NCBI RefSeq assembly: GCF_030651595.1
Contig: NZ_JAUSCH010000056.1
Span: 1-40,573, forward strand
Length of the DNA: 40,573 nt
DNA from: Candidatus Oleimmundimicrobium sp.
GTDB lineage: Bacteria; Actinomycetota; Aquicultoria; UBA3085; Oleimmundimicrobiaceae
Direction of reading: 5' to 3'
The notes below the pieces were generated by a model, which saw only the letters and a program-made list of their open reading frames with translations, did no database searches and had not been told where the DNA came from. This document shows, in pieces, positions 4,052-17,894 of the stretch. Numbering within the stretch: position 1 is the stretch's first letter; each line of letters begins with the position of its first letter. The position numbers and the translations under genes are program-made.

Positions 4052-4801
4052 TTAATCCCGAATGCTTCGACCGGTTAAATTCAAGAAAACATCTTCCAGG
4101 GTCACCTGTTCAGGCGAGCCGATTTCGCTCTTAAGTTCATCGGGGGTGCCCAGTCTGATTATCTCGCCACCATCCATGATGGCTATGCGGTTACAAAGCC
4201 GATCGGCTTCTTCCATGTAGTGGGTAGTGTAGAGGATGGTTATTCCATTGTTCCGTAAGCCCTCGATGGTTTCGTAGATGTTGTTCCGCGATTGGGGGTC
4301 TATGCCCACCGTGGGTTCATCTAAAAAGAGGAACCGGGGGTGGCCCATCAGAGATATGGCCATGTTGATGCGTCGCTTCATCCCCCCTGAAAATTTTTTT
4401 ATCTTTCCCTTGGCCCTCTCCGTCAGTCCCACGAGTTCAAGATTGGCAACAGCTTGGGTTTTTGCTTCTTTGGCGTTTAATCCGGCCATTCTTCCAAAAA
4501 AGATCAAGTTATCGAGAGCGGAAAGGTCTTCATAGAGAGCCAGCTCTTGAGGGCAAACGCCGATTAAATTGCGAGCTTCGTTTCCATTATGCCGAATAGA
4601 ATAATCACCAATTGTCGCGTCTCCATGGTCTGGCTCAAGAACCGTAGACAACATGCGTATGGTCGTAGTTTTACCAGCGCCATTGGGGCCCAATAAGCCA
4701 AAAATCTCGCCCTTGTGGATGGAAAAAGAGACACCATTAACAGCCTTTGTATCGTTAAAACTTTTATAGAGATTCTCTGCTACCAGAAATGCCTCAGCCA
4801 T
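4052..4801 (-). CDS. ABC transporter ATP-binding protein (exporter)
   Basis: A 249-residue nucleotide-binding subunit of the DrrA/CcmA-type export family. Walker A GPNGAGKTT is at residues 38-46, the ABC signature FSGGMKRR at 137-144, Walker B LFLDEPT at 158-164 followed by VGIDPQSR, and the switch His in YTTHYMEEADRLC. The C-terminal tail with GTPDELKSEIG and LEDVFLNLTGR is the usual drug-export accessory segment. It is the first gene of the operon with two ABC-2 permeases and has a consensus-like promoter upstream. It powers export across the cytoplasmic membrane. Confidence 0.93.
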   Translation of the reverse strand: MAEAFLVAENLYKSFNDTKAVNGVSFSIHKGEIFGLLGPNGAGKTTTIRMLSTVLEPDHGDATIGDYSIRHNGNEARNLIGVCPQELALYEDLSALDNLIFFGRMAGLNAKEAKTQAVANLELVGLTERAKGKIKKFSGGMKRRINMAISLMGHPRFLFLDEPTVGIDPQSRNNIYETIEGLRNNGITILYTTHYMEEADRLCNRIAIMDGGEIIRLGTPDELKSEIGSPEQVTLEDVFLNLTGRSIRD

Positions 4802-4857
4802 AACTTTTGCCCCCTAATTTTTCTAGCTATGATTTAAAGCTGCCACATTAGCTTAAT

Positions 4858-4886
4858 ATTATATGTCTTGTGTCCAGGACTGACAA
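4858..4886 (-). promoter_or_regulatory. Sigma-70-type promoter of the ABC export operon
   Basis: On the minus strand, -35 TTGTCA (4881-4886) and a perfect -10 TATAAT (4858-4863) are separated by 17 bp, about 57 bp upstream of the ATPase start. The spacing and match are strong. No operator-like palindrome was seen next to it. Confidence 0.7.
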
Positions 4887-4975
4887 TATAAACGTCTATT
4901 AAAGACATGCGGACAACCATCGATGGTTTTATTTTAAAGGTCAAATATCTAACAAACCTGTAGAAACCTTGCGAT

Positions 4976-5170
4976 TTAAGACTTGAGTCCTCTTGCTTTC
5001 GCTTTGGTGAAATCTTCTCTAATCCAACTCACGATTGCACCCACACCAATTAGCGCAGGGAGACCGATGGTAAGCCAGAGAGGTGCAGAGCGTCACACGC
5101 ACACGGCGGCAATTATTCCGGTTCAAAAAATAAGACTAATAACCCTCCCGAACCATTTCATAACATTCAT
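4976..5170 (-). pseudogene. Decayed small membrane-protein gene with two in-frame TGA codons
   Basis: Read through its stops, the frame gives a 64-residue product starting MNVMKWFGRVISLIF and ending FTKAKARGLKS, closed by TAA at 4976-4978. It is a short protein with two hydrophobic stretches around a central interruption and a basic tail. TGA occurs in frame at codon 16 (5123-5125) and codon 26 (5093-5095). A ribosome-binding site AAGGGG precedes the second ATG (5161) by 9 bases. Reading TGA as Trp would restore a plausible protein, but other genes here, such as hsdS, end in TGA, so these are taken as true stops and the gene as broken. The remaining parts of the 4802-5362 spacer hold only the ABC promoter and AT-rich DNA with no recognisable feature. 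Confidence 0.5.
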
Positions 5171-5362
5171 CCCCTTATTTTTGACCTTTGTAAATATTGC
5201 TTTATAAATTTATTTTATCCCTACACTTAAAAATAAGCTATACATCCTTGACTTCTCTTTAGACTAAACCAACTTGCAAAATTACGAAAAAGCCAAAATC
5301 AAAATCCGAGGGGAAAATTGCCTGGCAAATAAAGTGAGGTTTATATCAAAAAACTTAAGAGA

Positions 5363-5884
5363 TTAATGTGTAGGCTTCTTTCTTTTGAGTACTTCTTGCC
5401 AAAATGCTTTGTGTTGCTTTCCATCTTCGCCCACCACAGGCTCTTCACCAACTATTATAATTTCATCCTCTTCTTTTTTTACGAAGCACTCCTTAAATCC
5501 CCATCTTCTTTTATTTTCCGGAAGCCCTTCGCAATATTCCCACGAAATTCGACCCATCCCTTCGTAATCTTTATTCATCACCATAATCCCTTGCCATTCA
5601 TATTTAATATTGCCTGCTTCGTCTCTATTCCAAGTAGTTATTTCAAGTATGTTATCCCTTATGTATTTAATTGTAGAATCACTTTGGGGTTCTGTGCCAA
5701 CCACGAATCCATCCTGAGTTATATTTACTCCATATCCAATATATTCACCTGCAATAGGTCTGAACTTTTCCTCTATCACCTTTTTCATTCTCTTATCTTC
5801 CTGTTTGAGAAGCCATTTCTGAGCGATATAACCTCCAACAATAGACAAGATAGCTCCGAAAACAACCCACCCAAAAGTATCCAT
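5363..5884 (-). CDS. Single-pass membrane-anchored protein of unknown function
   Basis: A 173-residue protein I do not recognise. The N-terminus (about residues 4-24, GWVVFGAILSIVGGYIAQKW) is one membrane helix, followed by a charged stretch (KQEDKRMKKVIEEKF) and a soluble domain rich in aromatic and acidic residues to the end. A good ribosome-binding site (AGGAG, 8 bases before ATG) supports the start. It stands 79 bp downstream of the YgjP-type gene, at the end of the restriction-modification island, and could be the last gene of that transcript. A function in defence is only suggested by position. Confidence 0.7.
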   Translation of the reverse strand: MDTFGWVVFGAILSIVGGYIAQKWLLKQEDKRMKKVIEEKFRPIAGEYIGYGVNITQDGFVVGTEPQSDSTIKYIRDNILEITTWNRDEAGNIKYEWQGIMVMNKDYEGMGRISWEYCEGLPENKRRWGFKECFVKKEEDEIIIVGEEPVVGEDGKQHKAFWQEVLKRKKPTH

Positions 5885-5963: not shown

Positions 5964-6488
5964 TTAAACGTTATTATCTTGAATCAAAAACCAATATGCA
6001 AATAAATCCTTTTCAAGCTCGTCAGAGTTATCAAACTTCTTTGAAACCATCTTCCAGAACCTATCGTTATGTTTTTTCTCAATCAGATGAGTGGCTTCGT
6101 GAAATATCACGTACTCTATCAAACCATCGGGCAGGTGTTTCATCAACGTATTTACAGTTAAATTTCTTCTTGTGCTGCAACTTGCCCACTTGGTTTTCAT
6201 TCTTCGAAAGAAGATTTTATTGACCCTTACGCCTAGCTCTTCCGAAGCTTCTTCAATGTAAAAATGAACAAGGTCTCTCAATTCCTCGTCCGTTCTATCA
6301 ATAATTTCTTTATTTGATGAATTCTTCAAACACTCCTCGATAAACACCTTTTTCCGACGAACCCAAACCTTATGTTTCTCTAAAACTGTGTCAGGATTAC
6401 GGTCAAAAGGTAATACGAGTAAAAGTTCTCCCGTTCTAAATTCCAGTCGAGGATGCTTTACATTCCTATAAGAGACCTCGTGTGCCAT
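5964..6488 (-). CDS. YgjP/DUF45-type zinc metallopeptidase
   Basis: The protein carries HEATHLIEKKHNDRFW, the HExxH zinc site with the third ligand in a KKHNDRFW segment, typical of the YgjP/SprT-like DUF45 family. WVRRKKVFIEE and MKTKWASCSTRRNLTVN are further family hallmarks. The chosen ATG (6486-6488) lies one base after the hsdR stop and has GGAG 9 bases upstream inside the end of hsdR, giving 174 residues. A longer form from 6521 is possible but would overlap hsdR by 32 bp. Genes of this family are frequent last members of type I restriction operons, where their role is not settled. Translation is probably coupled to hsdR. Confidence 0.85.
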   Translation of the reverse strand: MAHEVSYRNVKHPRLEFRTGELLLVLPFDRNPDTVLEKHKVWVRRKKVFIEECLKNSSNKEIIDRTDEELRDLVHFYIEEASEELGVRVNKIFFRRMKTKWASCSTRRNLTVNTLMKHLPDGLIEYVIFHEATHLIEKKHNDRFWKMVSKKFDNSDELEKDLFAYWFLIQDNNV

Positions 6489-6489
6489 A

Positions 6490-9400
6490 TTATGAAGCTC
6501 CATAGTTTTCCACGCTCTCAATTAGTTTCCCGTACAAATTGTCCATCTCTTCCAAAGATAATTTGTACTTCCTCTTTAATCCCCTGACAAATCGCCTAAC
6601 TTCCCTTTCCACTTCTTTCTTAATTGTCGTTTGTCCAATCCAGCCGGGGAACATACGCCTTTCCAACAAACCCGATAAGCTCTTCATTTCCCCAACCAAT
6701 TCATCGCCTTCGCCCAGTTTCTCCTCAAGAATAAGCAACATTGAGTACTCAAGGTTTGAGAAGTCTAAAGTTCTTTGCCTTGCTGAAAGAGCACTCACAT
6801 CATTTACTATCTCCGCACCCTCTTTGTATATTCTTTCGTAATCTTTGGTCTTCTCGTTCCAGAGTTCAAGAAGTCTCTCCACTCTCTCGGCTAAAGATTC
6901 GTAGATTGGACTCCTGTGTCTATCAACAAGAACCAGCTTATTGAGCGTAAAAAGTATATTGGCAGCCGCTTCTTTCTTGTCCTTAACCTTCTCTTCCAGT
7001 TTCTTAAGATAGTTTTCATCAAAAGTTATGGTCGGGAGCTCTCTATTGAGTTTTTCCACCTCGGTGGATTTATGAGCAAACTTTATTGTCTTTTCGTAAA
7101 ACTTCTGCACATACTTTTCATAAGGAGGCTTCTGGATAACAACCTTCATGTAGTAGGTGTAAATTGCGGAAAGCCACTTATAATCTTCAAAATGTTCGAG
7201 TTTAACTTCGTCAGGACCAAGAAGCTCAAAAACTTTTCTTAATTGTCTGTACTTTTCCACAAACCTCTTTTCCTTCTCCTCGTCTGCAGTGAGTATCTCA
7301 ATGGCCTTAAGTAAAGTTTCTCTTTCATATTTCCTCGACACTTCCTTAAATAACTCAAGGGTCTCCTTAATGAGAGTTACAAACTCTTCTCTTAATCCGT
7401 CATAACTTTGTAGCGCATCAGCAATATCCTCCTCGCTGTACATCTCCAAAGCTTTTTTAAACTCTTTCAAAACACCGACATAGTCGATTACGACACCTGC
7501 TTCCTTGAAGTCATTGAAGGGCCTGTTCGTTCTGGCAACCGCCTGAAGGAGACGATGTTCTTTTAACGGCTTATCGAGATACATCGTTTGCAAGATGGGG
7601 GCATCAAAGCCCGCGAGCAACATCTCGGTGACGATTAGGATTTTAGGGGATTCTTCCTCTTTAAACTTTTCAACCGCGTCTTTCCTAACATCCTTCAGAT
7701 CCCTGTATCCATACCTCACCTTGGACTCGGCAACAAGTTCCTGAAGCACAGGTTCCTTTTCGCCTCTCTCCTCCATTGTCATCACAACTTCGGAGCATTC
7801 CCTGGACAGATGCTTATCTAATTCGCTCTTATAGAGGGCACATGCCTTTCTGCTCGGTGCTACTACCATGGCTTTAAACTTGCCGTCAACATTTTCTTTA
7901 AAATGCTTGGCAATATCTTCGGCTATCAACTTTATCCGCTCCGGGTTTTCGAGAAAAAGCTTTATGGCGTTTAGTTTTCTCTTTGTTTTTTCTTCTACGT
8001 CCTCCTTAATATGTTCGGGAAGCTCTTCTTCCGCCATTTCCAAAAAACCCTCAAGTAATTCTTTCTTTAAGTAAACCTTTTTTTCAAGCCGGGGCTGGTA
8101 AACAATCTTTACCGTAAAACCGTCCTCTATGGAGTCAGTTATGAAGTACTTGTCCAGATAAAGCTCTTTGGGAGGATAACTAAATTCGAGATAGGTGTCT
8201 CTGCCTCTCTTAGATATGGGGGTACCCGTTAAAGCATAGAAGAAGGCGCTTTTAAGGATAGCTTTCATTTGAACAGCCAGCATTCCATATTGAGTTCGGT
8301 GCCCTTCATCTATAAAGGCGACGACATTTTTGCGACTCATTATAGTTGTTTTGCTTTTTGATACTGCCGCAAGCTCCCTTTGTAATTCTTTGAGCTCTTC
8401 TGGCCTGAACTTGTGGATGAGAACGATGAAGACGCCCCGCTTGCCACGATAGTCATCGTAGCTTAAGACATTTTTAAGTTCGTCTATGGAGCCAATGATT
8501 TCAGGCTCCACAATGTCCATTGAGTTAAACTCTTTATAGAGTTGATCCTCAAGCTCAATCCTATCGACGATGAAGAAGATGGTGGGATTTTTAAGTGCGT
8601 TAGCATAATAGAGTTTGTTGGCTGCAAATATCATGGTGAGTGTTTTTCCACTTCCCTGCCAGTGCCAGATAAGCCCCTTGTTTTTTTCTTCTTTCCCTTC
8701 GAGGTTATCGAGAACTCTGTTTACCATCTTGTTTGCGGCCCTATACTGCATGTATCTGGTTACAACTTTAGTGGCATTACCAAACTCAATTCTAAAAAAG
8801 AGAAAGTGTTTGAGGATGTCCAAGAAGGTGTCTCGTGAAAGCATCTCAATGGTAGAGTCGATGGAATCTAAATCATTTTCTCGCCACTTGTTGGTTTTTA
8901 CATCATCTTGCCAGGGGACAATGGGAAAATATTTCGCCTTGCTTTCAGCGGCGACACCAATCTGGACATATTTATAAAGTTCAGGAACGGTTTTCTCGTA
9001 GTCTTTTATCTGGCGGTAAGCATTGTGCCAACTCTCGGATATGCTCGTAGGGTTCTTACATTCTATATTTACCAGGGGAATCCCATTAACGTAAAGCACT
9101 ACATCGGTTCTTATCCTCTCCCTGCCATCGTAATACACCTGCCGGGTGACAATAAACTCATTGTTCTCGATATTTTCATAATCAAAAAGTTGGATAGCTC
9201 TTAGAACCCTGTCTCTCTCAAACTTTACTGGAACGCCGAGCTTATATAAATTTAGGATGCGCTTAGCTCCTTCCATCCCTGTGCCCGCGAACTTCAGTTC
9301 ATTTAAAACCTTATTTATCTCCTCATCTCCAACATCGAGTTTTTCGTTTATCTTCTCGATTGCCCTAATGAGATTAGGTACTAATAAAGGTTCTTGATAG

Positions 9401-9501
9401 CTCTCGCGCTCAAGTTCCTCAGCGGGGACAAACTTCCAGCCCTTCTCTTGAAGTTTCTGAACTATATAATCTTCAACTAAAATTTTCTCATCAAAAGCCA
9501 T
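6490..9501 (-). CDS. hsdR: Type I restriction enzyme, R (endonuclease/translocase) subunit
   Basis: A 1003-residue HsdR with the standard domain order. The N-terminal nuclease shows D133 and E147-C-K149 (PD-(D/E)xK pattern in RTDVVLYVN...NIECK). The SF2 motor follows, with Walker A GSGKT at 283-287, DEGH at 398-401, LTGTPISKRG as motif III, and a second RecA lobe with VVAPSRKACALYKSEL and QAVARTNRPF as motif VI. The C-terminal third is helical and would dock onto the HsdM2S core. All catalytic motifs are intact, so the enzyme looks active. Its ATG overlaps the hsdS stop by 11 bp. It cuts unmodified DNA after ATP-driven translocation. Confidence 0.97.
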   Translation of the reverse strand: MAFDEKILVEDYIVQKLQEKGWKFVPAEELERESYQEPLLVPNLIRAIEKINEKLDVGDEEINKVLNELKFAGTGMEGAKRILNLYKLGVPVKFERDRVLRAIQLFDYENIENNEFIVTRQVYYDGRERIRTDVVLYVNGIPLVNIECKNPTSISESWHNAYRQIKDYEKTVPELYKYVQIGVAAESKAKYFPIVPWQDDVKTNKWRENDLDSIDSTIEMLSRDTFLDILKHFLFFRIEFGNATKVVTRYMQYRAANKMVNRVLDNLEGKEEKNKGLIWHWQGSGKTLTMIFAANKLYYANALKNPTIFFIVDRIELEDQLYKEFNSMDIVEPEIIGSIDELKNVLSYDDYRGKRGVFIVLIHKFRPEELKELQRELAAVSKSKTTIMSRKNVVAFIDEGHRTQYGMLAVQMKAILKSAFFYALTGTPISKRGRDTYLEFSYPPKELYLDKYFITDSIEDGFTVKIVYQPRLEKKVYLKKELLEGFLEMAEEELPEHIKEDVEEKTKRKLNAIKLFLENPERIKLIAEDIAKHFKENVDGKFKAMVVAPSRKACALYKSELDKHLSRECSEVVMTMEERGEKEPVLQELVAESKVRYGYRDLKDVRKDAVEKFKEEESPKILIVTEMLLAGFDAPILQTMYLDKPLKEHRLLQAVARTNRPFNDFKEAGVVIDYVGVLKEFKKALEMYSEEDIADALQSYDGLREEFVTLIKETLELFKEVSRKYERETLLKAIEILTADEEKEKRFVEKYRQLRKVFELLGPDEVKLEHFEDYKWLSAIYTYYMKVVIQKPPYEKYVQKFYEKTIKFAHKSTEVEKLNRELPTITFDENYLKKLEEKVKDKKEAAANILFTLNKLVLVDRHRSPIYESLAERVERLLELWNEKTKDYERIYKEGAEIVNDVSALSARQRTLDFSNLEYSMLLILEEKLGEGDELVGEMKSLSGLLERRMFPGWIGQTTIKKEVEREVRRFVRGLKRKYKLSLEEMDNLYGKLIESVENYGAS

Positions 9502-10678
9502 CTTGAGCTCCTACTTTTACTCGTTTTTGGCCTGTAAGCAAATCATTCATTAACCCCTTTTTAACTCTTTCAAGCTTTTCCTTCTTCTTCCTGAGAAGTT
9601 CTAATCTATTGTCAACAGTGCCCAGAATCTCAGCGATTTTCTTTTGTTCAAATAAGGTTGGAAGCGAAATAAGCATCATATTAACAACACTTTTTGTTAC
9701 ATGCTTAAGCCCTGCTCCTCCATGTGCTTTCTTGATTAAGAAATCAAGTCTTTGGTTAATTGCTGCTATGAAGTAATTTTTAAAAAGATCGGGTGCTTTA
9801 AAAATAACTTTAAATATATGTTGATTTAAAACAGCCTTTCGGCCCATCCATTTATGCACACCAAAAGAAGTCCCTGGTGTTCCAGACCACGCTAGCAATA
9901 TCTCCTCTTTGTTAATTATGTACTTTTCAGCTACTTCAAAGTTACAGTAATTAAAGGGTTTCGATAGGTCGTTTAGATTTTGTATCCTAATTATGGGCAG
10001 ACCAGCATCTGACCACTCTGTCGGCTTAAAAGCACGACCATTTATTAAATTAGCAATTTGCCCCACTTTTACTACTTTCCAGCTTGCTGGTATCCTCCCA
10101 ATTTCTGTATCCTTAAATTCTTTGTGGCTGATGCCTCTGGTCAAAAGCTTTTGCATCAAGCCCTTTTTCAGCCGCTCGGTTTTCTCAATGGCTTGCTCTG
10201 TCTTCTCAATCCCCTCATCAACCGTCGAAAGAATCTCAGCAATTTTCTTTTGCTCGGGTTTAGAAGGAATTGAAATAACTTGACCATAAGCTATGTCTCT
10301 ATTTAATCCTGGAGTTCCTGTTGCCATATTCAATTTTGAAAGATTTAGTGAACTTAACTTGTAGTACATCCAACTTAAGTCAGTACTATTGTCTTTCAAT
10401 ACAACGAAATAAGTTGTATCTATGGGCCAAAAATCATTATCAGTCCAACTTATCGCACCTATGGTACCCTTTCTACCTACGACTATCCCTGGCCTCTTTA
10501 CTAGAAAATCGATGTGATAGCCAACAACACCATTTGAACCAAAGACAGGATATTTCCCCTTCTTTCTTTGAGTTTCTGTAAGCCCTTTACCGTATTCCAA
10601 GGAGATTTTATTTCCCAACTTCGCAACTTCCCAATCCTCGGGAATTTTGCCAATTGGCGTTTGTTTATGCTCATTCAT
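9491..10678 (-). CDS. hsdS: Type I restriction enzyme, S (specificity) subunit
   Basis: HsdS has two target recognition domains, each opened by an IGxIPxxWxVxxxG box (IGKIPEDWEVAKLG near the start and IGRIPASWKVVKVG mid-protein). Each is closed by a conserved helix with EQKKIAEIL(S/G)TVD followed by a coiled coil (EKTERLKKGLMQKLLTRG and KLERVKKGLMNDLLTG). The internal symmetry is complete, so it should read a split DNA target. ATG 10678 is preferred over the upstream TTG at 10690 because an AGGATTGGG element precedes it. The TGA stop lies inside the start of hsdR, so the two are translationally coupled. It is separated from hsdM by five genes, which is unusual. Confidence 0.96.
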   Translation of the reverse strand: MNEHKQTPIGKIPEDWEVAKLGNKISLEYGKGLTETQRKKGKYPVFGSNGVVGYHIDFLVKRPGIVVGRKGTIGAISWTDNDFWPIDTTYFVVLKDNSTDLSWMYYKLSSLNLSKLNMATGTPGLNRDIAYGQVISIPSKPEQKKIAEILSTVDEGIEKTEQAIEKTERLKKGLMQKLLTRGISHKEFKDTEIGRIPASWKVVKVGQIANLINGRAFKPTEWSDAGLPIIRIQNLNDLSKPFNYCNFEVAEKYIINKEEILLAWSGTPGTSFGVHKWMGRKAVLNQHIFKVIFKAPDLFKNYFIAAINQRLDFLIKKAHGGAGLKHVTKSVVNMMLISLPTLFEQKKIAEILGTVDNRLELLRKKKEKLERVKKGLMNDLLTGQKRVKVGAQDGF

Positions 10679-10682
10679 TTTG

Positions 10683-11183
10683 TCACCCAATCCTACAAGG
10701 TTTATTTTCTAACTTAACTTCTTTCTTAGTCGTATATAATGATGAATTAACGTATAGTTGTCCCCCTAATAAATCTGCAATTATTTCCTTGCTTTCTTTA
10801 ATTTCTCTGAGAAAATCGACCTGGAAACAATTCAATTCCCTACAGAAGTACAATTCTTTTTCATCTCCTCGCTTTACCATCTCTCTCAGAAAGGTTTCAT
10901 AATTCTTAATTAGCGGTTGATGTCCTTTATCGCTTCCAATCCACAATGAGAATTCTACTTTTTCTAAAACTGCATCAAGGTAAGGTGATTTATTAATTAT
11001 TTTTAGATATATACTTCCAGTAGGTATGTTTGAGCTTAATGAGAAAGAGATGGGATTGGTGCTTCGAACATCTATTAGAACATCATTTTTAAATTGACTT
11101 TCAGGATAAATCCTTTTTGCAATAAACGGCAAAAATTTGCTGGTTGTTTTAAATATTAACGACAAAACTAAATTATCAATCAT
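10683..11183 (-). CDS. Unknown protein between KAP NTPase and hsdS
   Basis: I do not recognise this protein. From ATG 11181-11183 it has 166 residues; an upstream ATG at 11207 would add eight. The chosen start follows GGAG and AAGG elements. The N-terminus (MIDNLVLSLIFKTTSKFLPFIAKRIYP) is hydrophobic with Lys residues and could be a membrane-associating or amphipathic helix. The middle has alternating hydrophobic residues like a beta-sandwich (SFSLSSNIPTGSIYLKIINKSPY), and a charged helical part follows (RGDEKELYFCRELNCFQ). It lies 26 bp after the KAP NTPase stop and just before hsdS, so it is co-transcribed with both. It may be a partner of the NTPase. Confidence 0.72.
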   Translation of the reverse strand: MIDNLVLSLIFKTTSKFLPFIAKRIYPESQFKNDVLIDVRSTNPISFSLSSNIPTGSIYLKIINKSPYLDAVLEKVEFSLWIGSDKGHQPLIKNYETFLREMVKRGDEKELYFCRELNCFQVDFLREIKESKEIIADLLGGQLYVNSSLYTTKKEVKLENKPCRIG

Positions 11184-11209
11184 TTTCCTTACTACTCCCT
11201 TTCCCATAC

Positions 11210-13405
11210 TTAAAGGTCATTGGGACTTTTACCCTTCGAAAGTAATTCAAACTCTTTGATAAAAGTTTCAACCGCAATTTTTTTCATGTCTTTTAACCAC
11301 TCAGGAGGTGATTTAATGAGATTTTTGCATCTTCCAATAATCTCTACTGGATTTAGAAAAGATTCAAGAGATTTTGGAGAAAGACACCATTTAACTTCTC
11401 CGACCCTATCCGTTAGTGTTTGCCTATATCCTTTAGAAAGAAACCCTTCAAGTAAATTCGCAAGATCTTGATCAGTCTCTATCGTTTTCGCTACCCATCT
11501 TTTCACAGCCTCCTCGCTTTCCCAATCTCTCCATCGATAGAGGACACCGGAAAAGTGCGGCAACTCCAGTAATCTGCCACCTGAGCTTGCCTCTTTGATT
11601 TTTTGTAAAGCTACTTCTTCCAATTCTCCTACATGCTGAAGACTCACGAGACATTCTTTTTCCGGGTCCTTCTCTTTAGCACCATATTTGCCATGTTGTT
11701 GCCCCAGAACTGCCACCTCGCCAACTATTACAGATACAGCTTGTCCGTCTCTAAATACCTTTTGCAAGATCTTGAATCTTTCTTCTTGTGAATCATACCG
11801 CTTTAGAAGTTGAAACATAATTCGTCCTATGCGGATATCATTCCCCCAACTGAATAAACCGCGGCCTTCATCTTCGAGCACGAGGAGTTTATCACCAACA
11901 TCGAAAAGTGCCTGTAGGATTTCGGGTATCTGTTCCTTTGGTATATCTTTCTGGGTGAAGTCTTCTATTCTTTCGAGAAAAGCACTGACTCGTGTACTTC
12001 CATCAGGCCGATGTTGCTGTACCAACCCTAACAATTTGTTGCCAAAGGCCGTGCTTTCCTTGCCAAGCATGAGGATCGTTCGCATTTCAGAATAGGCAAT
12101 CTCTCCTTCAGGAACTGCCAAACGAAAATAGACAGGAAAAATGTCAGAGCTACATATTCTTAATTGTCTTCTCCACTCCGAATCGCCGTGAATTGTATTT
12201 CCGAAGACATAATCTAATTTTGGAAAAATGCGGGCCAAGAGTTTCTTGACTGAGTCTCTATCGTTCTCGGGGAGCTGCTTAACCCATTCTTCGTGGAAGG
12301 CTTTAAGAGTATCTTTCGCATGTTGAGCTGCAACACCATAGGAGTCTACCTTGCCGGCAAACATGTCAGGATTAAAACGAATCAGATGGTAAACCTTAGT
12401 CACAAACAACCGCAGCGTCTCGATTGTAATGAAATCCACCGAGTTGACTTCGCCTTTGACTGGATGATAGTTTATTTTGAGAGTATTTGTTAGGAGTTTG
12501 ATGCTTCGCACTGTGTTTATAAAATGGTCAATTCCATCCCAATAGACATTGGCAAAGTAGATTTGGTCAGCTAATTCTTCTGGAGTGTCCGCAAAAATAA
12601 GACCCAATTGTTCAAAAAGCCATTTTCGCAAGGCAGCCTTATCAGGTACTGGCAATTCGAAGGGAATTTGAACAATCTTCTCAAGATAAGCTTCACCAGG
12701 TATGCCTTGTGTTTCTTTTAACGCTTCTACAACAACCGATTTATCAAACGCTAATAGATATGTGCACCTTGGAAAGTCGGCAACAGCTTTTATTACTTTG
12801 AACAAATCTCTTATTTCATCTACAGTAAGCCTATCGATATCGTCTATAAGCACAAGAATGCGACGATTTTGTTTTCTTAGAAGGCACTTGATTTTTTCCC
12901 GTGCTTCCCAAGCTTTTTCTTCCTTGCCTATTTTTTTGAGAACAGCTGACAAAGTTTTTCCACCAAATTTACCTAGCCCAGTCGGTTCAGGTATTTCCGA
13001 AATAAGGTCAAAAAAGGTCGCGAGACTGCTAGCTATGCTTTCTAGCTTATTCTTCTGAAAAGTTTTGAGTAGCTCACGAAAAAACTGTACCAAGAGGTCC
13101 CCATGGCCAGAGAACCACCACGGATTAAATCTCATAATGATTGGCCTATTTTCCTCTGGCATTTGTGCGATATAGTGTAGGACGAAATTAAGACAAGTAG
13201 TCTTGCCAGTACCCCAATCACCATGAAGGGCAAACACAAGAGAATCCTCAGTCCTAATATTGCGAAGCGCTTCAGCTAAATTCCTAGCAAAAGGCGCGTA
13301 ACCTAATCGGTCATCCTTCGGGTCCTCCAATGGAGTATCTACTAGAATCGCTTCGCTCAAATTTTGATTGTTTTGCGGCTTACTGAACTCTTCTGACACA
13401 CTCAA
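11210..13405 (-). CDS. KAP family P-loop NTPase, soluble type
   Basis: A 731-residue NTPase with Walker A GDWGTGKTT (62-70), the KAP marker RFNPWWFSG (92-100), and Walker B LVLIDDIDRL (184-193) followed by FPRCTYLLAFDKSVV. These are the signatures of the KAP group of STAND-like P-loop ATPases. Many KAP proteins have membrane helices inserted between Walker A and B; here that stretch (100-180) is mostly charged or amphipathic, so the protein is probably cytoplasmic. The C-terminal 400 residues are helical with no domain I can name. The start is TTG 13403-13405, with GGAG five bases upstream. KAP NTPases occur in anti-phage loci, including the Tmn system, which supports a defence role here. Confidence 0.88.
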   Translation of the reverse strand: MSVSEEFSKPQNNQNLSEAILVDTPLEDPKDDRLGYAPFARNLAEALRNIRTEDSLVFALHGDWGTGKTTCLNFVLHYIAQMPEENRPIIMRFNPWWFSGHGDLLVQFFRELLKTFQKNKLESIASSLATFFDLISEIPEPTGLGKFGGKTLSAVLKKIGKEEKAWEAREKIKCLLRKQNRRILVLIDDIDRLTVDEIRDLFKVIKAVADFPRCTYLLAFDKSVVVEALKETQGIPGEAYLEKIVQIPFELPVPDKAALRKWLFEQLGLIFADTPEELADQIYFANVYWDGIDHFINTVRSIKLLTNTLKINYHPVKGEVNSVDFITIETLRLFVTKVYHLIRFNPDMFAGKVDSYGVAAQHAKDTLKAFHEEWVKQLPENDRDSVKKLLARIFPKLDYVFGNTIHGDSEWRRQLRICSSDIFPVYFRLAVPEGEIAYSEMRTILMLGKESTAFGNKLLGLVQQHRPDGSTRVSAFLERIEDFTQKDIPKEQIPEILQALFDVGDKLLVLEDEGRGLFSWGNDIRIGRIMFQLLKRYDSQEERFKILQKVFRDGQAVSVIVGEVAVLGQQHGKYGAKEKDPEKECLVSLQHVGELEEVALQKIKEASSGGRLLELPHFSGVLYRWRDWESEEAVKRWVAKTIETDQDLANLLEGFLSKGYRQTLTDRVGEVKWCLSPKSLESFLNPVEIIGRCKNLIKSPPEWLKDMKKIAVETFIKEFELLSKGKSPNDL

Positions 13406-13440
13406 TCACTCTCCTGGTCCGCCTCAAGTTTATTTTTGTG

Positions 13441-13977
13441 TTAATGCGGAAACCCACAAAAAAAGCAAAATACTCTACTAGCCCAACCATCTTCTACCTT
13501 AATCTTGCGTTGACAACATGGGAGATCATATACTTTCATATCGTTAACTTCGGGAGATATCCAAGGTTCTTGTTGTTCCATCTCTTTGCCTTCAAACTGT
13601 ACAGAAATCATGCCTGAACCATATTTCCGAGAAGTTCTTTTAAGTGGACGAATGAGATTTTCATTAACTATCTTTGCCATAATGTTTTTGGTTACAACAC
13701 TGATGTAGGCAAGTTGTTCTTGTGTCCACCAGTTACCGCTGACTGCTGCCTGTCCACAATAAGGACAAGTAAATTCGACTTCTGAGTGTTCGTCTTCATC
13801 AAGATTTGTTGCTTCTTGTGTCTCAACCATGAAAGAGTCAAGTCCTTTCTGAGCAAGATCTGTTAACTCTTCTTTCTCTAGAAGTACCTTAAACTCTTTG
13901 CAGCAAAATGGACATTCTCGTCTGAAGTATCCGTTGTCATCAAGAGGAAATGGAAGGTTCATTTCAATATCGCTCAT
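13441..13977 (-). CDS. Zinc-ribbon protein of unknown function
   Basis: A 178-residue protein with four Cys pairs: CPFC (22-25), CPYCG (71-75), CC (154-155) and CFFCG (171-175). The first two pairs could form one zinc ribbon around an acidic insert, and the last two a second ribbon at the extreme C-terminus, CCQRKI...CFFCGFPH. The region between (residues 80-150) is mixed alpha/beta without known motifs. The ATG overlaps the TGA of the Abi_C-like gene (ATGA), so the two proteins are probably made together and may bind each other. I cannot assign a function. Confidence 0.75.
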   Translation of the reverse strand: MSDIEMNLPFPLDDNGYFRRECPFCCKEFKVLLEKEELTDLAQKGLDSFMVETQEATNLDEDEHSEVEFTCPYCGQAAVSGNWWTQEQLAYISVVTKNIMAKIVNENLIRPLKRTSRKYGSGMISVQFEGKEMEQQEPWISPEVNDMKVYDLPCCQRKIKVEDGWASRVFCFFCGFPH

Positions 13978-14768
13978 TTGACAACCGCTCCTTTTGTCTG
14001 GTTAAAGCGTCGAATAATTGTTGTTGAGAGAGTTGAGGCAGTGTTTATAGCAAGTTCTGCTATATTCTCTGAGACATCAGGCGGAAACTCGCCTTTTCCG
14101 TGAGCATCTCCCAATATATTCCTTAATCCACCCAAATGAGCTACAACACCTGATAAAGTGTTCATTAAGGTTAGGGTGGCTCCCGAGGAATCGAGTTTGT
14201 CAAAATTTAGAATACCACGTGTTGATTTCCAAAGGTCAGTGACCTGTTTGCTTCTAGGTAAGGACTTCCCCAATTTTTCATGACAAATGCGCATGGTGCT
14301 CTCAAGACATGCGATACTTCGAGTAACTGCATTTTCGAAATTACCATCCCGGATTGCTTCCCGAGCTTTTTCAATATCCTTATAAGCAGAATAAAAACCT
14401 TGAGCTTCAAACAATCCTCTGGCTGTAGAAATAATTTGCCTCGTTGTTTCTGCTGTAACTAAACCACAAGTACGGCAAAAATCTAAATCGGTTTCTCTTT
14501 TTCGAATCTTGCAAAAAAGAGATTCAACATTGAAAGATGCACCCCCTATGTAGGGATGGATGCGCACCTTTGGAAGGGCCGCGTCGCAGCCAACCTCTCT
14601 GAAAATCTGTCCAGCAGAGCAATTGAAACACATGGTCGGATTGACCTCGTTTGTAGTCTTATCGCCAGTTTGTCGTGCTGCTCGACATATTAGCGTGCCC
14701 ATCCCAACTTGTTGTAAATGACAATCTATATTGTCATTTTCTTTCGGTTCTACAAATCCATCTGACAT
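13974..14768 (-). CDS. Zn-finger protein with Abi_C-like abortive-infection domain
   Basis: The start at ATG 14766-14768 is preferred to the ATG 21 bases upstream because GGAGG lies 7 bases before it; this gives 264 residues. The first 105 residues carry eight Cys, including CFNC (47-50) and CRTC (98-101), which suggests one or two zinc-binding modules. The C-terminal half is helical. It ends with LRNILGDAHGKG (215-226), the hallmark of the Abi_C (abortive infection C-terminal) domain, preceded by CLESTMRICHEKLG as its first helix. Abi_C proteins are found in phage defence loci. The pairing with a Cys-rich N-terminus and an adjacent zinc-ribbon gene is unusual. The domain call rests on motif recognition only. 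Confidence 0.72.
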   Translation of the reverse strand: MSDGFVEPKENDNIDCHLQQVGMGTLICRAARQTGDKTTNEVNPTMCFNCSAGQIFREVGCDAALPKVRIHPYIGGASFNVESLFCKIRKRETDLDFCRTCGLVTAETTRQIISTARGLFEAQGFYSAYKDIEKAREAIRDGNFENAVTRSIACLESTMRICHEKLGKSLPRSKQVTDLWKSTRGILNFDKLDSSGATLTLMNTLSGVVAHLGGLRNILGDAHGKGEFPPDVSENIAELAINTASTLSTTIIRRFNQTKGAVVK

Positions 14769-14890
14769 TTTGCAACCTCCAGATATCATTATTTATATAC
14801 AACAATTAGAGCAAGCCTTTTATACACTCTATTTTGACAACCTTTTTGCCAATAAATTCTACTGTCTACCGTGTGCTGTCTACATTCAAT

Positions 14891-14926
14891 AATCACGAAC
14901 CTAATCACGAACCTAATCACGAACCT
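14891..14926. repeat. Three perfect tandem copies of a 12-bp unit
   Basis: AATCACGAACCT is repeated three times without change (14891-14902, 14903-14914, 14915-14926), just beyond the fic stop codon. On the transcribed strand the unit reads AGGTTCGTGATT. The rest of this spacer (14769-14935) includes two copies of CTGTCTAC separated by six bases. No hairpin with a T-tract was seen, so this is not an obvious terminator. Three short units without spacers are not a CRISPR array. Confidence 0.9.
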
Positions 14927-14935
14927 CCTCGGAAA

Positions 14936-15976
14936 CTATTGTGCCAGGACATAACTTAAACTCCGCCCTTTGCCCTCCGATTTAATTACCTTTAAATCCA
15001 CAAGTTTTCTGATTTCTTTCAATGCAGCACGATCCGAGATCTTAAACATCTCTCTTACGTCACGATTCGTTATTTTTCCGTTCTGATTTATAAATTCGAT
15101 AATCCTCATCTGTCTTTCCGTTAATGCGATCTGTCCTTTCTCGGTTCGCTTTAATCTTTCAGCGCTAAGTCTCGCAACTCTTTCCCTCACAGCAGCAATG
15201 CTAACCTTAACCCCTTCGACAAAATACTCAAGCCAACCGGTTAAATCGAGAATCGTTTGGTCCACACTTTGTAATGCCCCGTAATATGATTGCCTGTCTG
15301 AATCGTAGTAGTCATCCAGACAGAAGAATTGCTTTGCGTCAAAGCCTTGCAGATAAAGAACCAAGGCAGCAAGAACACGAGCTGTTCTGCCGTTTCCATC
15401 TACAAAGGGGTGAATTCTGACAAATTCATAATGGGCTATACCGGCTTCAAGAACAGGGTCAAGTGTTTTTGCTTTAGGGGAGTCCAACCATTCAATGAGC
15501 GCCTTTATTAAACTCGGAACATCTTCATTCGAAGGCGGCCGAAAAGAGACTTCACCAGTTAATCTATTCCCCACCACGACATAACGGGTACGGTAAACCC
15601 CACAATCTGAAGGATTTTCCAACGTGTCTTGAGTTAATATTTTATGGATTTTTAAAACATTTTCCTCGGTAATATTCTTACCGTCGGTGAGTTTCTGAAT
15701 GTTCTCCAAAACACCTAGATAGTTTAAAACTTCCTGTTTGTCCTTACGAGTTGCCATTACTTCGCGCCCATTAACCAGATCGCTCACCTGCTCCAAAGAT
15801 AATCTGTTTCCTTCAATGGCGGTAGAGGAATGAGCGCAACGAATAATTGCCTCGCGACGGAGCGATACTTCCCATTTCGGAATAAACGGAGAATTCAAAA
15901 CAAGTTCTCTCGCCGCAGCAATCTGTGTTAGATCATGTACAATCTTATCCGTGTAGCGAAACTTTGGCTTAAACAT
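14936..15976 (-). CDS. Fic family protein (AMP transferase) with winged-helix C-terminus
   Basis: A 346-residue Fic protein. The active-site loop HPFVDGNGRTAR (189-200) matches HPFx(D/E)GNGRxxR in full, so AMPylation activity is expected. The N-terminal inhibitory motif (S/T)xxxE(G/N) is present as STAIEG (51-56), which makes this a class II, self-inhibited Fic. The C-terminal 70 residues (LTERQMRIIEFINQNGKITNRD...) form a winged helix that could bind DNA. It overlaps hsdM by 8 bp, so it is translated together with the methyltransferase. Fic genes inside type I restriction loci are known, but their partner proteins are mostly undefined. Confidence 0.94.
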   Translation of the reverse strand: MFKPKFRYTDKIVHDLTQIAAARELVLNSPFIPKWEVSLRREAIIRCAHSSTAIEGNRLSLEQVSDLVNGREVMATRKDKQEVLNYLGVLENIQKLTDGKNITEENVLKIHKILTQDTLENPSDCGVYRTRYVVVGNRLTGEVSFRPPSNEDVPSLIKALIEWLDSPKAKTLDPVLEAGIAHYEFVRIHPFVDGNGRTARVLAALVLYLQGFDAKQFFCLDDYYDSDRQSYYGALQSVDQTILDLTGWLEYFVEGVKVSIAAVRERVARLSAERLKRTEKGQIALTERQMRIIEFINQNGKITNRDVREMFKISDRAALKEIRKLVDLKVIKSEGKGRSLSYVLAQ

Positions 15977-17741
15977 CGTTGCTCCCTTTTAGTTCTTCCA
16001 GATACCCTTCAATCTTGTTCTCAACCTCTGCAAGTTCGCCTTCCAAAATCTTTAATTCATCCCATTCTTTATCAACATCAATTTCCTCGATTTCTTCCTC
16101 AGGAAAAACATAGAGAGTAACGTTTAGATTGTAATCATTTTCCTTAATTTCCTCCAAGCTAACAACCCTTGAAAAACCATCGCCATCTGAAAATTCTCTA
16201 TAAGCTTCAACGATATTTTTAATATGTTTATCCCCCAAGCGGTTCAGTTTTCTAACATCCGGATGCTGTTCGTATTCATTGCTGGCATTGATAAAGAGAA
16301 TTTTTTCTTTGCGGTCGGTAGGCTTGTTCTTGTTGAGAATCATTACGGCTCCTGGTGCGCCTGTGTTATAAAAGAGTTTTTCGGGCAAAAGGATGAGGGC
16401 TTCTATGTAGTCCGCATTGAGCGCCGCCATTCGAATCGCCTTTTCTTTGCCGCCCCTAAAAAGGGAACCATTATCGATAACCACCCCGACCCTGCCAGTA
16501 TCATCCTTGGTAGAAGATACCATGTGCTGTATCCAGGCCCAGTCGGCCGATTGTTTGGGAGTAAACCCTAAGCGATATCTCTCTCTCCAGAACTCTCCCT
16601 TTTTGAGGGTTTCCTCAGGATAGCCGTCTTGATTCCAAGGAGGATTGGCGATAACCACGTTAAACTTCTTAAAATCTTCGCCCTCCTTAAATTTGGGATA
16701 AAGAAGCGTATCGCCCAGAGTAACTTGGGCATTTCTGATGTCGTGAATGTAGAGATTCATCTTGGCCAGAGCAAGCGTTTTGTGATTTGCTTCCTGACCA
16801 AAAAGAAAGAGCTTATCGGCGTCGCCGTTACCCTGCTCGTCTTCAACATGTTGGTAAGCGCTTATGAGCATACCTCCTGAGCCGCACGCTGGGTCATAAA
16901 CACTTTCATCGGCCTTTGGATCAAGAATCTCCACGATGAGCTTGATGACCTCTCTCGCCGTATAAACCTCTCCCTCCTTCGCTTTCTGTGGCGCAAAGTA
17001 GCTTAAAATCCACTCATAGGCATCGCCGAGGATATCAGGAGACACATGCTGAAGAGTTCTGGCGCTAAAGAGCTCGACGAGCTGTCTTAAAATCTCGGCA
17101 TTTTCTCTGTTGGTTGTGAATTGAACGAAATCGACATTTTCAAAAACATCCCTAAGCTCAGGGTTTCTCTCAGCCAGAGCCTTCATGGCCTTTGAAAAGT
17201 TTTCGGGGAGTCTGGCCGGCTCTTTTCTGATGTTTTCCCAGAGAAATTCGTCCGGCAAATCAAAATCGTGATAGATTGAGTTTTTGGCTTCTTCTTTAGC
17301 TTCTTCTTCGGTGAGTCCGTCCTCAAGCGCTTCTTTGCGCGCCTGCCCAAACTCCAATTCCCACTTGTCGCTAATTCGTTTATAAAAAAGAAGAACAAGG
17401 ATGAAAGTGTAATCAACCCTTGTTCTTATAAGGTCAGCTGCTTTTTTTAAGAGTCCTTCGAGGTCGCCCCTGGTAAGCTTATTTGTCTTAATTGATAAGG
17501 TTTCGGTTATGAATTCTTCTTTTCCTTTGAGTTTATAAATCCTCTTTCGGGCATCGGTGGGATCGAAACTTGCCTTAAGCCATCCCCTTTTTCGAAGCTC
17601 CGAGAGAATTACGTTAACTTGGTCCTCGCTTTCTTCAATCTTTTCTTTTAAGATATTTGCAGCATCTTCGAACCTGAAATCGGAGGTCTTGTAGGCTTCC
17701 CACAAGATTTTGTATCTTTTATCGAGCCACTTTGGTATCAT
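15969..17741 (-). CDS. hsdM: Type I restriction enzyme, M (DNA methyltransferase) subunit with extra N-terminal helical domain
   Basis: ATG 17739-17741 is chosen because AGGAG lies 9 bases upstream and the predicted promoter (17794-17822) falls inside the only longer frame, which would start at 17843. This gives 590 residues. The SAM-binding motif DPACGSGGM is at 283-291, and the adenine methyltransferase catalytic motif is NPPW at 366-369. The usual HsdM N-terminal helices begin near residue 90. Before them, residues 1-75 look like a winged-helix (FEDAANILKEKIEESED...LSELRKRGWL...RIYKL), an addition not present in E. coli HsdM. It methylates the target adenine and forms the core with HsdS. 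It is the first gene of the island. Confidence 0.96.
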   Translation of the reverse strand: MIPKWLDKRYKILWEAYKTSDFRFEDAANILKEKIEESEDQVNVILSELRKRGWLKASFDPTDARKRIYKLKGKEEFITETLSIKTNKLTRGDLEGLLKKAADLIRTRVDYTFILVLLFYKRISDKWELEFGQARKEALEDGLTEEEAKEEAKNSIYHDFDLPDEFLWENIRKEPARLPENFSKAMKALAERNPELRDVFENVDFVQFTTNRENAEILRQLVELFSARTLQHVSPDILGDAYEWILSYFAPQKAKEGEVYTAREVIKLIVEILDPKADESVYDPACGSGGMLISAYQHVEDEQGNGDADKLFLFGQEANHKTLALAKMNLYIHDIRNAQVTLGDTLLYPKFKEGEDFKKFNVVIANPPWNQDGYPEETLKKGEFWRERYRLGFTPKQSADWAWIQHMVSSTKDDTGRVGVVIDNGSLFRGGKEKAIRMAALNADYIEALILLPEKLFYNTGAPGAVMILNKNKPTDRKEKILFINASNEYEQHPDVRKLNRLGDKHIKNIVEAYREFSDGDGFSRVVSLEEIKENDYNLNVTLYVFPEEEIEEIDVDKEWDELKILEGELAEVENKIEGYLEELKGSNDV

Positions 17742-17793
17742 AATATAATACTCCTTGCTGTTATTAGAAAAGTTATTTATTTTATACTTAGGT

Positions 17794-17822
17794 ATTTTAG
17801 AGCACCGGCTTACTTCTGTCAA
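17794..17822 (-). promoter_or_regulatory. Sigma-70-type promoter of the restriction island
   Basis: On the minus strand, a perfect -35 TTGACA (17817-17822) and -10 TAAAAT (17794-17799) are 17 bp apart, about 52 bp before the hsdM start codon. It is the only strong promoter seen for the run from hsdM to the YgjP gene. Confidence 0.75.
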
Positions 17823-17894
17823 TACTTTTTTGGGGAAATTCAACTATCAGCCATAAGCTATAAGCCATCTACCAATTGCCATATCATTCAAAGG

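Follow-up and report, generated by a model that had tools for sequence, protein, structure and literature searches.

A HEPN-type protein and its PDC-M14A zinc-ribbon partner in the cargo interval of a type I restriction locus

In a 40,573-nucleotide stretch of DNA from Candidatus Oleimmundimicrobium sp. (contig NZ_JAUSCH010000056.1, positions 1 to 40,573; hereafter, the window), four genes separate hsdM and fic from hsdS and hsdR of a type I restriction-modification locus. They encode a HEPN-type protein (P1), a double zinc-ribbon protein (P2), a KAP NTPase and an orphan protein (P4), and the question raised by this locus is whether they work as a single defence system or were brought together as separate pieces of cargo. 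An earlier note on this DNA, made from the sequence alone, described co-directional genes with links to defence inside a type I locus, and in both respects the description was confirmed.

The interval between hsdM and hsdS

All genes of the locus lie on the minus strand, in the order hsdM (15969–17843), fic (14936–15976), P1 (13974–14789), P2 (13441–13977), the KAP NTPase gene (11210–13405), P4 (10683–11207), hsdS (9491–10690), hsdR (6490–9501) and ygjP (5964–6521). HsdM, HsdS and HsdR are all intact, adjacent and match their own families (HsdM and HsdS by family profiles, HsdR with TIGR00348 at E = 1.2e-206), which identifies a type I restriction-modification system, and HsdS has two specificity domains. 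The fic product, a Fic/DOC protein, matches the Pfam Fic family (1.8e-22). P1 and P2 overlap by 4 bp (ATGA), P4 starts 2 bp past the KAP stop codon, and the end of P4 overlaps the start of hsdS. In base composition P1, P2 and KAP cannot be told apart from the hsd genes, while P4 is more AT-rich (32% GC), and a promoter scan revealed sites no more commonly than in shuffled sequence. Between fic and P1, in a gap of 146 bp, a 12-bp unit (TAATCACGAACC) occurs three times in tandem (14890–14926), possibly a scar of insertion or recombination. A perfect 10-bp inverted repeat with a 4-nt loop (14716–14739) lies inside the P1 coding sequence, at its beginning. A gene for a YgjP-like metallopeptidase lies directly 3' of hsdR in the window, as well as in L106 and L107, these being the only type I loci of the same class with sequence reaching that far.

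Four related type I loci of the same class (L105–L108), with HsdM proteins 55–79% identical to that of the window, carry different genes between hsdM and hsdS. These are fic, a PDC-S54 gene (2.4e-163) and a gene for a protein without a family name in L105, a short fic-like frame and an AlbA_2 fragment in L106, a gene for a weakly AlbA_2-like protein in L107, and a gene for an AlbA_2/HATPase protein in L108; for L105 and L108, where the sequence ends inside the locus or the stretch examined, this comparison covers only the part after hsdM. The hsdM-fic order is kept in L105 and L106. The region separating hsdM-fic from hsdS-hsdR is a slot for variable cargo, and the locus shows cargo exchange among related type I systems at this place. 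That type I loci can harbour embedded defence genes has been reported before: DarTG2 has been found inside such a locus (PMC12255303), and defence genes embedded within other defence loci ("guilt by embedding") are the subject of a preprint by Payne et al., according to its citation in PMC12988326. In L105, PDC-S54 is followed by the gene for the unnamed protein, of 315 amino acids, between fic and hsdS (L105, 3306–5541), and the two represent a candidate pair.

The KAP protein matches Pfam PF07693 (E = 9e-57) and, nearly end to end (residues 21–704), the PADLOC model of PifA (1.2e-117). It was described earlier as a soluble KAP NTPase with a Walker A lysine at position 68, and this description holds, since the Walker A motif reads GDWGTGKT, with Lys68, and a maximum 19-residue hydropathy of 1.2 indicates no membrane helix. 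None of the KAP homologues on four plasmids and in four genomes of the same phylum is flanked by a homologue of P1, P2 or P4, about 1.5 kb having been examined on each side of the match in the four genomes. KAP is probably an independent, single-gene defence of the PifA type, for which exclusion activity is predicted. An assignment to the Qat system was considered and rejected, with a score of 51.8 bits against QatA, for which the cut-off is 600, and with no match to QatB, QatC or QatD among the neighbours. P4, listed in the earlier note as an unknown protein just before hsdS, indeed matches no family. Neither 296 genomes of the phylum nor plasmids yielded a homologue, and the idea of P4 as a conserved partner of KAP was therefore rejected; a role as a KAP accessory is possible. 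Taken together, the best explanation for the content of the slot in the window is two independent insertions, one being the P1 and P2 module and the other a stand-alone PifA-like KAP NTPase with P4.

The HEPN-type protein and its zinc-ribbon partner

The earlier call of P1 as an Abi_C-like protein passed a profile comparison, with 34.3 bits against the Pfam Abi_C cut-off of 24 (E = 2.6e-8), and the PADLOC AbiJ model also matches (3.3e-12). The start codon of P1 is probably at 14768, matching the start in the homologous locus L009. The C-terminal half aligns with plasmid-encoded AbiJ proteins through R-x6-H-G and carries an intact R223-x6-H230 motif (R223 NILGDA H230), which does not vary among the three intact P1 sequences. 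In a survey of HEPN proteins, R-x6-H is taken as the RNase active-site motif (PMC3710099), and P1 is a putative RNase on these grounds. The N-terminal part of about 110 residues is a new Cys-rich domain with eight cysteines (C23, C35, C54, C57, C68, C93, C105 and C108), all invariant across the same three sequences. In a tblastn search of P1 against plasmids, only the C-terminal part, from about residue 102, was aligned among the matches listed, and therefore the N-terminal domain looks specific to a small group. An AlphaFold model of P1, built from the three-sequence alignment, had a pLDDT of 40.6, too low to be of use.

P2 belongs to the PADLOC PDC-M14A family (2.5e-24). Both the zinc-ribbon call and the ATGA overlap with P1 made in the earlier note stand, and in an alignment of 55 family members three CxxC pairs and a C[C/H] motif (CC in P2) are conserved, with C22, C25, C71, C74, C154 and C171 invariant and C174 near-invariant. 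The AlphaFold (AF2) model of P2 (pLDDT 84.8) contains strand pairs around the Cys motifs and a long helix at residues 86–117; in the model, these strand pairs are consistent with two zinc ribbons. Fold and sequence searches against the PDB gave no convincing match and no solved relative. The sequence matches, designed or C2H2 zinc fingers with only the Cys spacing in common, were discarded.

Recurrence of the genes elsewhere was a check attached to the earlier note, and its outcome is divided: the P1 and P2 genes recur together, while P1, P2 and KAP were found together nowhere else. In another Actinomycetota genome (L009), P1 is about 85–86% and P2 71–72% identical to the window proteins, with the same 4-bp overlap. 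Since this sequence ends 141 bp past P2, the lack of a KAP gene there rules out only its immediate adjacency to P2. An Omnitrophota locus (L010/L109) holds a decayed pair, P1 having a stop codon and P2 being split by a DDE transposase gene, within a defence island with RhuM-Fic and AbiEii. A search of phage records for P2 gave none; two IMG/VR viral contigs with near-identical gene maps (L080/L081) were found instead, with P1 about 62–63% and P2 55% identical. There the two genes form a lone cassette on the opposite strand, between the terminase and the portal/head genes, and in L080 (IMGVR_UViG_3300017989_005592, 4166–5528), a tailed-phage contig, this is a cargo-like position. No KAP gene was present at the pair loci of L010/L109 and L080/L081. 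P1 and P2 are a portable two-gene pair conserved across several backgrounds, the sample being a handful of loci, one of them decayed. Phages are known to carry anti-phage cargo (PMC9122126), and the phage-borne copy of the pair fits this habit.

Effector partners of the zinc-ribbon family

To see which genes accompany P2 relatives, one genome per species was scanned, yielding 61 loci. A CAP12/PCTIR-type TIR gene lies immediately upstream of the zinc ribbon in 45 of them, a count that is not an unbiased frequency because the scan patterns were derived from TIR-paired homologues. Assignment to the TIR class relied on resemblance to reference TIR proteins; three of these references were checked with Pfam. 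Further partners are a DUF4062/TIR-like protein (L025), P1 (L009 and L010), Ymh-type HEPN proteins (L027 and L028), a DUF5677 protein (L052) and Fic (L015), and three of the 61 loci have no assigned partner class. The gene adjoining another P2 homologue, in L006, matches PADLOC M14B (3.7e-91). Zinc ribbon and TIR_2 are fused into one protein in L011 (907–2475), a metagenome-assembled genome of Ktedonobacteraceae. Double arrangements, with two TIR-zinc-ribbon pairs or a pair and an extra TIR gene, were observed in Mycobacterium and Nocardioides (L068, 392–1788 and 5517–7281; L042, 4945–7201).

In another recurrent arrangement, a zinc-ribbon gene of the P2 type and a gene for a Ser/Thr kinase are convergent. 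It was seen in L021, L037, L045 and L061, with a fragment in L055, and a further profile search, covering 301 Chloroflexota genomes, added two such neighbours (L088 and L090). The kinase of L090, the sole one so tested, matches the mad6 and PD-T4-6 models; these kinases are convergent with the zinc-ribbon gene, not co-operonic. The Chloroflexota search also revealed three zinc ribbons (L091–L093) fused to a C-terminal domain with an RHxxxH motif; the fused domains have no Pfam match and may be HEPN-like, judging by the motif alone. One fusion gene (L092) is located directly 3' of hsdS and another (L091) beside a RES-domain gene.

On a tree of 66 zinc ribbons the partner labels are clustered. 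To explain the distribution of the HEPN label, a minimum of four changes is required on branches with good support, and L011, with its TIR fusion, nests inside the Ymh-HEPN clade; the fused zinc ribbons form long branches and their placement is unsure. The changes in the HEPN label and the position of L011 are therefore evidence of effector exchange around a constant zinc ribbon. A TIR-zinc-ribbon pair on a contig titled Vibrio cholerae strain 35D (L062, WNZI01000057.1) groups with Cryobacterium (99/92 support) and represents contamination or a recent transfer.

The association of one zinc-ribbon family with several kinds of effector suggests a shared trigger or adaptor. One could go further and propose that PDC-M14A is a general infection-sensing adaptor family for TIR NADase-type, HEPN RNase, kinase and Fic effectors, sometimes fused to them, with P1 and P2 as its HEPN-RNase version, present in type I loci and phages; we put this forward tentatively, as a reading that may well prove too broad. 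Literature searches, with preprints and most subscription journals outside their reach, found no paper naming PDC-M14 in its text and no zinc-ribbon partner common to TIR and HEPN effectors.

A possible mechanism, its rivals and known systems

With moderate confidence we propose that the slot holds two insertions and that P1 and P2 constitute an abortive-infection or phage-exclusion module, with P1 as the RNase and P2 as the sensor or adaptor of exchangeable effectors. The C-terminal HEPN domain of P1 would be a metal-independent RNase, silent before infection. P2, alone or with the Cys-rich N-terminal domain of P1, would recognise an infection product, a nucleic acid or a phage protein, and activate P1, which would then cut host or phage RNA and stop phage growth; the sensor role is assigned to P2 because it is constant across partners. 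The outcome would be abortive infection or the exclusion of competing phages. The family may do an equivalent job for CAP12-type TIR proteins, Ymh-HEPN proteins and perhaps PD-T4-6-like kinases, so that the effector would be exchangeable and P2 the constant part. If so, the combination of a single small and constant zinc protein with interchangeable killing enzymes would provide a simple and testable form of modular immune signalling, and the trigger recognised by the zinc ribbon, once found, would explain the TIR, the HEPN and perhaps the kinase versions.

The chief rival, which we regard as rather unlikely, takes the two genes for a classical toxin-antitoxin pair, in which P2 neutralises the HEPN toxin P1 and is released or degraded on infection. 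The overlapping genes, the small partner, the HEPN toxin and the pairing across backgrounds all agree with it. An antitoxin, however, usually fits one toxin fold, whereas effectors as unrelated as TIR, HEPN, Fic and M14B are found with the P2 family, which is even fused to TIR. Nor is the gene order constant, the effector lying first, 5' of P2, in the P1 and TIR pairs and second, 3' of it, in the Ymh and M14B pairs.

Association with restriction genes raises a still less likely alternative, that P1 and P2, perhaps with Fic, back up the type I system as PrrC does in EcoprrI, firing when a phage anti-restriction protein disarms restriction. The pair is embedded between hsdM-fic and hsdS, and P2 homologues lie within or next to type I loci in L027 (where hsdM and hsdS follow the Ymh-HEPN pair), L052 (beside hsdM, hsdS and hsdR) and L092, as well as near HsdR in L054. 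Moreover, AbiJ, Ymh and PrrC/RloC HEPN proteins are known from restriction-modification operons, PrrC/RloC also with Fic/Doc (PMC3710099). On the other hand, the pair has no nearby hsd genes in L080/L081, a helicase is all that accompanies it in L009, and for most P2-TIR pairs no hsd genes lie within 6 kb. The model of the earlier note, in which infection is sensed by two Cys-rich proteins that pass the signal on through KAP as a three-part system, is very improbable. Co-directional and closely spaced genes in the window are in its favour, but KAP is absent from L010/L109 and L080 and does not adjoin P2 in L009, the examined KAP homologues stand without P1, P2 or P4, and the slot is occupied by other cargo in related type I loci. 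Because of this neighbourhood evidence, the trio as one system was rejected and KAP was set apart from the proposed module of P1 and P2.

That no named system has this gene set, as the earlier note stated, is true only in part, since P2 falls in PDC-M14A, KAP matches the PifA model and type I embedding has been described. The window KAP resembles PifA, the phage-exclusion KAP NTPase of the F plasmid, along nearly its full length; it differs in being carried in a type I locus with the orphan P4. Like the type I-associated anticodon nucleases PrrC and RloC, P1 is a HEPN protein encoded within a type I locus, close to Fic. However, PrrC and RloC have an ABC-ATPase fused to HEPN, while P1 lacks an ATPase domain and so falls outside this group; it has a separate zinc-ribbon partner, and the pair also occurs away from restriction-modification genes. 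With AbiJ/Abi_C proteins P1 shares the C-terminal domain with R-x6-H, but it differs in its new N-terminal domain, rich in cysteine, and in a zinc-ribbon partner that looks obligate; no zinc-ribbon neighbour is annotated for the plasmid-encoded AbiJ proteins of Enterobacter, Shewanella, Sphingomonas and Rhizobium. The closest counterpart of P2 is the PADLOC candidate PDC-M14; the PDC candidates were obtained by screening for guilt by embedding (preprint of Payne et al., 2024, according to PMC12988326). Both comprise two adjacent genes and P2 matches the M14A model, but M14B had no match among the ten window proteins in the PADLOC search, and its place is taken by a HEPN protein. This HEPN version and the breadth of effector exchange around the zinc ribbon appear to be new.
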